From Desulfobacterales bacterium (GTDB taxonomy: Bacteria; Desulfobacterota; Desulfobacteria; Desulfobacterales; C00003060), in the NCBI GenBank assembly GCA_030613145.1, contig JAUWMM010000058.1, forward strand, positions 1 to 8,442: a DNA stretch of 8,442 nt, read 5' to 3'. The notes beneath the pieces were generated by a model that was not told where the DNA came from, did no database searches, and saw only the letters and a program-made list of their open reading frames with translations. Of the stretch, positions 4,095 to 7,815 are shown piece by piece; position 1 is the first letter of the stretch, and every line of letters begins with the position of its first letter. The position numbers and the translations under genes were made by a program.

Positions 4095-5150
4095 CTATCT
4101 AAATAGTCCTTGTTGGATTGGCAAACCAAAATGACGGTATGCTTCTTCTGTGACCTTGCGGCCAGAGGAGGTGCGGTTGACAAAACCAATCTTTAGCAGG
4201 TACGGCTCAACAACATCCACCAGGGTGTCGGACTCTTCTTGCAAGGTGGCCGCGATGGCCTCAATGCCCACAGGCCCTCCCTTGTAGAAGTCGATAATGG
4301 TTTTCAAGTATTTCCTGTCCAGCACTGCCAGGCCCTTTTCATCAACCCCCTCAAGCTCCAATGCCTTACAGACTATGTCTTTGCGGATAATTCCGTCGCC
4401 TCTGACCTGGGCAAAGTCCCTCACCCGCTTCAAGAGCCGGTTCACAATCCTGGGGGTGCCCCGAGAGCGGCGTGCAATCTCGTAAGCGCCATCTGTGTCG
4501 ATTTCAACATTCAAAAGAACAGCCGAACGCCTTGCAATTTGAACCAGCTCTTCATCAGAGTAAAAATCGAGGCTCCTAAATATGCCAAAACGTTCACGCA
4601 GTGGAGCTGAGAGCAAACCTGCACGGGTTGTGGCACCCACCAGGACAAAGCGTGCCAGCCGGTATCGGTGACTTCTGGCATGAACGCCCTTATCAAAGAT
4701 AAAATCCACCGCAAAATCTTCCATAGCGGGATAGAGAAACTCCTCAACCACTTTCGGAAGCCGGTGGATCTCATCGATAAAGAGTAAGTCCCCTTCTTCC
4801 AGATGGGTCAGTATGCCTAACAGATCACCCCCCTTTTCCAGAGCCGGCCCACTGGTCACTGTCATGTTAACACCCATTTCTCCAGCAATAATGTGGGCAA
4901 GGGTTGTCTTGCCCAGGCCGGGGGGGGCATGAAACAGGATGTGATCCAGTGGCTCTTTCCGTTGGCGTGCAGCCTCAATGGCAATACTGAGGGCTTCTAT
5001 CACTTCGGCCTGACCGATATAGTCCTTCAAACTCTTAGGCCTGAGGCTTATGAAATGTGGTGTTTCCTCGGCAGGATCGACCTTGTTGGAAAGCAGTGCA
5101 ACGCTGTCCTCTCCAACTGCCTTACCTTCTTGTGGACTCTGATTTCCCAT
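4095..5150 (-). CDS. ruvB: Holliday junction branch-migration helicase subunit RuvB
   Basis: RuvB is the AAA+ motor that assembles as hexameric rings on RuvA-bound four-way junctions and drives branch migration with ATP in the cytoplasm. Visible parts: an N-terminal extension, [12 protein letters not shown] (36-47), Walker [10 protein letters not shown] (75-83), Walker [11 protein letters not shown] (122-131), sensor/arginine-finger segment [19 protein letters not shown] (171-189), sensor 2 [11 protein letters not shown] (230-240) and a C-terminal winged helix with [11 protein letters not shown] (290-300). Length 351 is close to the usual 330-350. An H replaces the common G just before Walker A. 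The ATG overlaps the ruvA TAA by one base (TAATG), with GGGGAAG upstream, so translation is coupled. It is the last clear member of ruvCAB here. Confidence 0.98.
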
Positions 5151-5767
5151 TAGCTTACTTCCCCGCGATAGACCTCTTCAAAAAGTTCTTCTGCCGTAGT
5201 AATACTGCTATTTCTTTTCAAGGCGGCAGCTATCAGCCCCCTAGCTTCTTTCACCTTGTGGCCCAACTGCTTTATCAGCACCCCCTGGACCTGTTCCACA
5301 AAATCTTCAGATGGTGCAGTTTCAGTCGGTTCTTCAACCTTTCGGATTAAGGCAAACTTAGCCATCTTGCCCTCCAAGGTTGCCAAGATTTTTTGTGCTG
5401 TTCGGTTCCCAATCCCTTTTAGTCGCTTCAAATAGGGCGCATCCCTGGACTCTATAGCCCTGGCAATCTCTCGAACCGGTGCCGTAAGGGCCTGAACCGC
5501 CTTCATAGGTCCGATATCTTCCACTGATATGAAGTAACGGAAGAACTCCCGTTCCACCTCCAGGTTGAAACCTATAAGAGTCGGCTTGGGCTGACGCTCA
5601 GTTTGATGGTAGTAAATATATAGGGCAACCTCTTCACCAGTCTTTTTGGAGTCAATGGACTCTCTTACAATTGCCGGCAGTAGTATTTCGTAACCAACCT
5701 GGTTGGCTAACAGCAAGATACGATCCTGTTCCTTTTTTAGCAGCTTGCCTTCCAGATAGCCGATCAT
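5150..5767 (-). CDS. ruvA: Holliday junction recognition protein RuvA
   Basis: RuvA tetramers bind the four-way junction, load RuvB and regulate its ATPase. The protein has 205 residues (E. coli 203) with the standard MIGYLEGKL start and N-terminal OB fold (1-65). Tandem helix-hairpin-helix motifs follow, at about 80-95 ([15 protein letters not shown]) and 114-128 ([15 protein letters not shown]). After an acidic linker, the C-terminal RuvB-binding three-helix domain includes [16 protein letters not shown]. The Shine-Dalgarno GTAGGAGCA (5780-5772) is well placed before the ATG. The gene is separated from ruvC by 233 nt, unusual for this operon, and the gap is filled by an inserted repeat element. 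Its stop overlaps the ruvB start. Confidence 0.97.
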
Positions 5768-5777
5768 ATCCTGCTCC

Positions 5778-5784
5778 TACGATT
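5778..5784. repeat. Left copy of target-site duplication of the MITE-like element
   Basis: TACGATT here is repeated exactly at 5996-6002, immediately outside the opposite terminal repeat. The preceding C is also shared, so the duplication is 7 or 8 bp. This copy lies next to the ruvA Shine-Dalgarno. Confidence 0.7.
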
Positions 5785-5995
5785 GGTGGTCTCGTAAAAA
5801 GTCAATTTTCCTCACTCCATGAGCATTTTGGGCGCACTCAAAATGCTCAGCTAAAATGCTAACACGTAGTGAAGCATGGCGCTCAACTCGGGCTAACACC
5901 CTCAAACAGTTAGCATTTTTTCACGCTGAACATCTCGAGTGCTTTTCTCCTAAAATGCTCAATGTCCTTCGTAAAAAACTTTTTACGAAGCCATC
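5785..5995. mobile_element. MITE-like non-coding element inserted between ruvC and ruvA
   Basis: The element is 211 bp. Its left end GGTGGTCTCGTAAAAAGT (5785-5802) is an inverted match (15 of 18) to the right end ACTTTTTACGAAGCCATC (5978-5995). Internal inverted pairs continue the fold-back: TGAGCATTTT (5820-5829) with AAAATGCTCA (5952-5961), and AAAATGCTAAC (5853-5863) with GTTAGCATTTT (5909-5919), leaving a central loop of about 45 nt. A further tight palindrome lies at 5968-5989. It is flanked by TACGATT direct repeats. No open frame resembling a transposase is present, so it would have to be moved in trans. It is transcribed within the ruv operon and would fold into a long hairpin. Confidence 0.75.
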
Positions 5996-6002
5996 TACGA
6001 TT
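5996..6002. repeat. Right copy of target-site duplication, overlapping the ruvC stop codon
   Basis: TACGATT again, matching 5778-5784. Its last two bases are part of the ruvC TAA (6003-6001), so the duplication kept the stop codon intact on the ruvC side while the other copy stayed beside the ruvA ribosome site. Confidence 0.7.
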
Positions 6003-6486
6003 ACGGATGTCTAAAAAAGCCTACCAGGGCTAAGGCTATGGCGTCTGAAGCGTGCGACGGAGTAATTGATATGTCTCTTTTCAAAAAATGCCTTACCGCC
6101 CTCTCCACTTGATCCTTGTTGGCATTTCCGTTTCCCGTCAGTATGCGTTTGACTTCCTTTGTAGGCAGTTCCACGGCCTGTATTCCACGCTGAGAGCCTG
6201 CAAGAAGTATAACACCGCAAACCTTTCCGAGAGCAATACCTGATTTGGGATATTGCTTGAGAGAAAAGATATCTTCAATGACCATCAGGTCGGGTTTTTC
6301 GGAATTCAGAATGGAACAAAGCTCAGAAAAGATATGGTGAAGCCTATTGGGTAAAGTCTCGGTCTTTGAGGTGCGGATTGTGCCGAAGGCGTAGTCTCTA
6401 ATCCGGGGACCAGACCCCTGGACTATTCCAAAACCTGTATCAGCTAAGCCAGGATCGACCCCGATGACCTTAAGAGACCTTTGCAA
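6001..6486 (-). CDS. ruvC: Holliday junction resolvase RuvC
   Basis: RuvC is the dimeric, metal-dependent endonuclease that cuts Holliday junctions symmetrically, acting with RuvAB. The protein is 161 residues. The RNase H-like catalytic set is present: D11 in VIGVDPG (7-13), E71 in VIEDIF (69-74), and H145 with D148 in SHASDAIALAL (144-154). The first of the last pair is histidine, as in Thermus RuvC, where E. coli has aspartate. The only start codon in this frame before VIGVDPG is TTG (6486-6484); an in-frame TAA lies a little upstream, and AAGGG sits six bases before the TTG. The stop coincides with one flank of the MITE-like insertion. YebC, often found next to ruvC, is not in this window. 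Confidence 0.96.
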   Translation of the reverse strand: MQRSLKVIGVDPGLADTGFGIVQGSGPRIRDYAFGTIRTSKTETLPNRLHHIFSELCSILNSEKPDLMVIEDIFSLKQYPKSGIALGKVCGVILLAGSQRGIQAVELPTKEVKRILTGNGNANKDQVERAVRHFLKRDISITPSHASDAIALALVGFFRHP

Positions 6487-6505: not shown

Positions 6506-6598
6506 CCCTGTTAATTCACAAACTTCAGGACCATCAATTCATGAAACTTCCCAGCTTGCGGGTTTAATCATAATCCAAAACTTTGCTAATTAACAGGG
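6506..6598. repeat. Fold-back element with 11-bp perfect ends upstream of ruvC
   Basis: CCCTGTTAATT (6506-6516) is the exact inverse of AATTAACAGGG (6588-6598). Extending inward, 17 of 20 positions match. The element is 93 bp, A/T-rich between the ends, and starts only 19 bp upstream of the ruvC start codon. I see no flanking target duplication and the centre does not pair as a continuous stem, so it could be a short MITE-like repeat or a regulatory structure. It shares no obvious sequence with the elements at 3906-4033 or 5785-5995. Confidence 0.5.
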
Positions 6599-6798
6599 CA
6601 AGTCTCTACGTCAGACTCAGATTTCGCACGAAGTGCCTCTTTAATTAAGCCGCCAGGTGCAACCTTTGCGCTATCCTCAAAATACTCAGAGTATTCCTTT
6701 GGTTTAAATCTTCGCCTTCCTTGACCTTGGACAAAATTGAACGCTTTGCAAACGTCTCCTAAAGTACTGGTTTCAAACGCAGGTTTCGGCCTTGTTGA
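6586..6798 (-). pseudogene. Start-less open frame between cpoB and ruvC, possible gene remnant
   Basis: Directly after the cpoB TGA, and in the same frame, 70 sense codons run to a TAG at 6588-6586. The product looks protein-like (for example RRRFKPKEYSEYFEDSAKVA, then PGGLIKEALRAKSESDVETC) but I do not recognise it. No ATG, GTG or TTG exists in the frame, so it cannot be an ordinary independent gene as it stands. It may be the tail of a lost gene, part of a dispersed repeat, or chance. The stop lies inside the right arm of the fold-back repeat at 6506-6598, which may have truncated it. An AGGAG (within TTTAGGAGACG) sits inside the frame without a usable start after it in this frame. Confidence 0.3.
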
Positions 6799-7716: not shown

Positions 7717-7770
7717 TCTCTTTAGTTCATTGGGTTTGAAACTGTTTTTACAAACACTGAGGTTGAAGTA

Positions 7771-7815
7771 CGGTGCTTCCACTAAATCCTGTTCAGGGGA
7801 TTAGTGGAAGCACCG
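7771..7815. repeat. Perfect 15-bp inverted repeat between pal and cpoB
   Basis: CGGTGCTTCCACTAA (7771-7785) is the exact inverse of TTAGTGGAAGCACCG (7801-7815). With one bulged A the stem extends by three or four more pairs, leaving a loop of about six bases. It lies 20 bp after the pal stop. No T-tract follows in the minus transcript, so it is not a standard intrinsic terminator. It may stabilise the pal mRNA 3' end, cause partial termination, or be an intergenic repeat. Confidence 0.65.

Follow-up and report, generated by a model that had tools for sequence, protein, structure and literature searches.

Several families of MITEs are described in bacteria, among them RUP, NEMIS, ERIC and Nezha, and the same source, in the part of its text available to us, describes REPs as extragenic palindromes of 20-40 bp and reports no dedicated transposase for CGTC-tagged repeats (PMC3733652). 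Palindromic multicopy sequence families are also described, in the accessible parts of two further papers, from Geobacter genomes (PMC2996986, PMC2700814). The locus compared with them here lies in an 8,442-nucleotide stretch (which we refer to as the window), contig 229 of the 319 in a 2.0 Mb, 65% complete genome of a Desulfobacterales bacterium. It is close to certain that positions 5785-5995 of this window are a MITE by origin, and we are highly confident that it is a dispersed non-coding MITE that probably owes its movement to a cut-and-paste transposase acting in trans and contains a hairpin core found again in elements with different ends. We draw the movement in trans from the dispersed copies together with the 7 bp target held only once in the empty ruvC-ruvA junction of a close relative, genome G018.

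The element separates two genes of the ruvCAB operon on the minus strand, with ruvC (6001-6486, PF02075 and open-reading frame) upstream, ruvA (5150-5767, PF01330 and open-reading frame) downstream and ruvB (4095-5150) as the third gene. Its ends in the window, GGTGGTCTCGTAAAAAGT, which we designate class A, are 18 bp terminal inverted repeats (left 5785-5802, plus strand; right 5978-5995, minus strand) identical at 15 of 18 positions, they are flanked by exact copies of TACGATT (5778-5784 and 5996-6002), and no open-reading frame of 80 aa or more overlaps the 211 bp between the copies; re-reading of the sequence confirmed these ends, flanks and non-coding length as a sequence-only reading of the window had given them. 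That reading left the target duplication at 7-8 bp; we take it to be 7 bp, not 8 bp, since ends of this family usually run ...CCRTC, which makes the C at 5995 the final base of the element itself. It also placed the ruvC stop within the target, which holds for two of the three stop bases (6001-6002) but not for the T at 6003; the whole TAA (6001-6003) is retained and, as had been proposed, the ruvC and ruvA frames are both unbroken. Within the element, a conserved apical core AACTGTTTGAGGGTGTTAGCCCGAGTT (5885-5911, minus strand, the same strand as ruvCAB) is followed directly on its 3′ side by a 22-nt segment (5863-5884, minus strand) that is optional, being missing in copies such as L006-L008. 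The element is a quasi-palindrome over its whole length, the single-stranded DNA fold of the element with its flanks has a z-score of -6.7, and the predicted fold of the ruv-sense RNA reaches -85.1 kcal/mol (z -5.6), and no terminator-like site was found. The ruvCAB transcript would carry a hairpin of roughly 200 nt between ruvC and ruvA, which could separate the translation or decay of the two messages. Elsewhere in the window, a single open-reading frame at 455-2083 fuses a Gfo/Idh/MocA-type oxidoreductase with a hexapeptide-repeat transferase, and an intergenic near-perfect hairpin, CGGTGCTTCCACTAA ... TTAGTGGAAGCACCG, lies at 7768-7815, where the Rfam microRNA matches are weak and at chance level.

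A search for RuvA in 60 genomes gave a match in 54, and the closest was that of G018, at 97% identity. G018 is 96.8-97.6% identical to the window on either side of the insertion, and its ruvC-ruvA junction is an exact empty site, 15 nt long with one copy of the target and no element. The junction that excision should leave had been predicted from the window (a TAA stop followed by 15 nt in which GGAG lies six bases ahead of the ATG), and G018 carries it with one base different. Among 30 ruvC-ruvA junctions, the paired class A ends or the core occur only in that of the window, and all 29 others (29/29) have neither, so the conservation of the 211 bp in distant relatives that the sequence-only reading had named as counting against its proposal was not seen in these junctions. 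Among the relatives (L058-L087, the window apart), the ruvC-ruvA spacer ranges between 0 and 352 nt in the 28 of 29 where it was measurable, and several spacers are filled by short repeats unrelated to the element. A second length difference from G018, of about 207 bp, falls upstream of ruvC at window positions 6509-6715, and near it an inverted repeat, CCCTGTTAATT / AATTAACAGGG, was noticed by eye at 6506-6516 and 6588-6598.

Copies of the element are dispersed through its own genome. A blastn search there returned 78 pieces, 12 further ones measuring 125-215 bp at 75-93% identity and one 169 bp piece being 67% identical. The class A ends in the form GRYGRTYTCGTAAAAAGTC, allowing two mismatches or fewer, are present in 22/22 genomes of the genus (97 in the own genome, 203 in G018) against 0 to 2 per strand for the reversed control in the genus genomes, whilst the form GAYGRTYTCGTAAAAAGTC, allowing at most one mismatch, was found in 128 of the 395 genomes in the phylum sample, with 695 in one genome, its reversed control occurring at most once per strand among the rows listed. 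Exact duplications of 6-8 bp flank 74 of 137 distinct elements with paired ends, compared with a mean of 1.6 when the flanks are shuffled. The range of 7-8 bp suggested earlier holds for a minority of these (7 bp, the window's type, in 10/74 and 8 bp in 1/74), but most are 6 bp (63/74); of the remainder of the 137, two have duplications of 3-4 bp and in 61 no duplication reaches 3 bp. The duplications mostly take the form ANNNNT, the six bases beside the left end starting with A in 67/74 and finishing with T in 66/74. Terminal inverted repeats, target-site duplication, a short non-coding body and many dispersed copies, the features by which a MITE is recognised, are therefore all found here, and the proposal of a non-autonomous, MITE-like element is borne out by the dispersed, duplication-flanked copies, found in the own genome and across the family, together with the empty site.

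The class A ends also enclose interiors unrelated to that of the window, for example GTAC..GTACGCCTCATTCCTCA in 17 of the 137 elements. Loci fetched by their ends alone are a fairer sample in this respect than loci selected by the core, and of the 32 candidate elements printed from them, nine (eight distinct) contain the core within four mismatches, one has a poor match with seven mismatches and 22 have other interiors. Similarly, L095, L116, L117 and others have class A ends around other palindromes, some built of CCGGAATGAC-type repeats; one shell therefore carries several unrelated interiors. In L007 and L010, adjacent class A ends share a common target copy (by eye), as though a second element had entered next to the first, at the target that the first had duplicated.

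The full-length transposon with the same ends that the sequence-only reading suggested seeking did not emerge from the families and loci tried. As partners of a transposase, class A ends were absent from genus loci of PF01609 (30), PF00665 (24) and PF01610 (16); no transposase was recognised, judging open-reading frames by eye, when 237 loci and 20 further stretches from eight other genomes were examined for outward class A pairs 600-4,500 bp apart, nor by eye near the four matches to the ends in viral contigs. The search covered PF01797, PF01609, PF00665 and PF01610, the PF01797 (30) and PF01609 (30) loci being part of all genus matches to these families. Because a MITE family can outlive its autonomous partner, we do not count the missing partner against MITE membership.

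Other origins for the element were weighed against the MITE reading. A REP/REPIN-type palindrome, mobilised in single-stranded form by a Y1 tyrosine transposase (RAYT), would fit a long palindrome in intergenic DNA, and Y1_Tnp genes occur in 20 of the 22 genomes of the genus, but we consider this very unlikely: the family has inverted ends and 6-8 bp target duplications, which are not known as a mark of Y1 transposition, the own genome (65% complete) has no Y1 match, and 30 Y1 (PF01797) loci contained no core within five mismatches and few had even a weak class A end. In L327 (positions 1-315), the end of an ISL3-type insertion sequence lies within a class A element immediately ahead of the core, with the transposase end directly adjoining the core and the class A end. 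This could be taken to mean that the class A ends are those of an ISL3-type element of which the core is the 3′ end. L327 was considered as such an autonomous copy and rejected, since L339, a related full-length ISL3 copy, carries separate end repeats, GGTTCCTCACAC... and ...GTGTGAAGAACC, just after the stop codon; we therefore read the ISL3 in L327 as inserted into a class A element, and, with class A ends also missing close to the gene in the other ISL3 loci examined, regard an ISL3 origin as extremely improbable. Least credible to us, with hardly any probability left to it, is the idea that the element was never inserted and instead represents a regulatory RNA conserved in the ruvCAB operon: the element does lie in the operon and in the transcript sense with a strong predicted fold, but it is lacking in 29/29 other ruvC-ruvA junctions examined, is copied at many other genomic sites, and has both a flanking duplication and an empty site.

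The apical core has a distribution of its own; that the interior holds a hairpin common to elements with other ends had escaped the sequence-only reading. The hairpin is built as YTGTTTGA, stem, loop, stem, CGAGTT. In the own genome, 28 sites match the core at 5885-5911 with three mismatches or fewer (none for the reversed control), an exact-core scan of named genomes gave at least 109 stretches, and the 80 titles among the matches listed are all of Desulfobacterales, Desulfobacteraceae, Desulfobacteria or Deltaproteobacteria MAGs. Across the phylum sample the core pattern occurs within three mismatches in 11 of 395 genomes, the own genome included, with a reversed control of 0. Neither of two forms of the core searched in viral contigs gave a match, and in plasmids three 30-base matches at an E-value of 0.7 were taken as chance. 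Among 170 distinct contexts, the ends on both sides of the core are class A in 84, class B (GAAGCTGTTTCAAAACC) in 17, class C (GTAACACTTTACGTGT) in five and class D (GAGACTGTCGAAAAA) in two; the remaining contexts have one known end (29), neither end (six) or lie at locus edges (27). Class B elements have TA on both sides in 18 of 21, the core being confirmed in part of the 21, and in this are like IS630/Tc1-type elements. Class D ends were read directly on both sides of the core in L145 and L162. Two genomes of the genus to which the window belongs each carry an insertion sequence delimited by these ends (L280:1317-3171 and L290:1282-3119), and the encoded products, 504 and 525 aa long, match PF13751, PF05598 and PF01609 (DUF772/DDE). 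One kind of carrier thus uses the ends of a known kind of insertion sequence; these differ in sequence from the class A ends of the window, whose element is without DUF772/DDE insertion-sequence ends. Of 80 core elements placed relative to genes, 27 are between divergent and four between convergent genes, and those between co-directional genes are antisense in 33 and sense in 16 (p 0.02; looser count 34 vs. 14), the own genome having the opposite trend (3 vs. 6); since this test was devised after seeing the data, we draw no conclusion from the orientation.

The stems of the core covary. A filter for six of nine pairs was passed by 117 of 136 contexts, giving 112 distinct hairpins, taken without the optional segment, and the 19 contexts left out comprise 16 with the extra segment and three without (L024, L134 and L175). 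In these 112 pre-filtered hairpins, 95.5% of cells at the five variable stem pairs hold a standard pair; shuffling the partners lowers this to 59.0% (maximum 63.9%) and sliding them to 23-47%. Conservation of the core in the same hairpins is partly a selection effect because the loci were collected by the exact core. An alignment of 19 diverse copies chosen from those that pair (A1) has 42 cells with two-sided changes against 11.5 when shuffled, and a covariance model found matches in 26 of the 395 phylum genomes at an E-value ≤0.001, again including the own genome. A second alignment (A2) of 24 chosen loci contains 23 distinct rows, at least two of which repeat rows of the training set; in the 23 rows, two-sided changes occur in 14/14 pairs and 98.0% of cells pair against 64.1% shuffled, figures that lean towards structure because the model shaped the alignment, the range of pair types being less affected. 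Apical stems of GGGC/GCCC, GGCC/GGCC, GCGC/GCGC, GCCC/GGGC and AGGC/GCCT were all seen. The internal loop TGTTTGA is exact in 19 of 24 A2 rows and one base off in the other five, and the GAGTT side is exact in 23 of 24, in rows found with a model that favours the TGTTTGA/GAGTT loop. Rfam gave no match at the window element, and none at an E-value ≤1 in seven loci with distant cores.

Kink-turns bend sharply at tandem G.A pairs, usually have a three-nucleotide loop and are bound by L7Ae-type proteins. The core is like them in sequence pattern, its two stems being separated by an asymmetric loop that could continue into tandem G.A pairs (TGTTT-GA / GA), but its loop is of five nucleotides, not the usual three, and the kink-turn-like arrangement is a resemblance only.

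How the parts of the element may work can be proposed from these patterns. The class A ends would be what a transposase reads, and because one core sits in carriers with different ends, the interior would be a module exchanged between them, an exchange that in sequence would look the same as ends having diverged very long ago. Because the internal loop hardly varies, we suggest that the module persists through being recognised by some factor when folded, as RNA or single-stranded DNA, by way of the TGTTTGA/GAG loop. We put forward tentatively, as a possibility somewhat short of probable, that the hairpin is a self-standing module older than its carriers, moved between MITE shells of different transposases across the phylum, persisting through a structure-specific factor that recognises the kink-turn-like loop and giving its carriers a shared benefit (mobilisation, stability or host tolerance). 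The stems might otherwise be paired merely through self-correction of a palindrome by template switching, the core being an unselected relic that nothing recognises, an explanation we find rather unlikely. Template-switching correction of palindromes would yield double changes without selection, and the whole element is quasi-palindromic. The unpaired loop lies beyond such correction, however, and keeps TGTTTGA and GAGTT at the frequencies above (in rows found with the loop-favouring model) though the arms differ completely; the apical stem also occurs in both directions (GGGC/GCCC and GCCC/GGGC) around an unchanged loop.

By itself, another MITE family would only add a member to a known kind; what is novel is the covarying core common to differently ended carriers, and no description of the core or of the ends was found in the open-access literature, judged by titles and the starts of abstracts. 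Descriptions of MITEs usually concentrate on the ends and take the interior for filler, and a covarying interior hairpin shared across differing ends and target choice makes a shared function of MITE interiors testable, with a covariance model available for seeking the factor that would read the core. The window offers a clear case, a mobile hairpin between two recombination-repair operon genes with neither frame broken.

The core-bearing elements share features with several known systems. The insertion sequences of the L280/L290 type (PF05598, PF13751, PF01609), which we take to be IS1182-like, come close in that their ends GAGACTGTCGAAAAA also bound MITEs holding the core, but the window ends GGTGGTCTCGTAAAAAGT differ and were not found with a transposase of this type; IS630/Tc1-type elements are set apart from the window's class by the 6-8 bp duplications of the latter. 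REPs, REPINs and CGTC-tagged repeats, as far as the accessible text describes them, are like the element multicopy extragenic palindromes, the CGTC-tagged repeats being likewise without a dedicated transposase, whereas the element differs from REPs in being 211 bp long with inverted ends and target duplications. The Geobacter families, compared by their partial published description only, share with it the character of intergenic palindromes in deltaproteobacteria. In build the element is also like the bacterial MITEs RUP, NEMIS, ERIC and Nezha, which in the text available are also short and non-coding, with inverted ends, target duplications, many intergenic copies and a strong hairpin; set apart from these by description rather than by sequence, the family in the window has a core common to differently ended elements, the stems of which covary around a nearly fixed loop.
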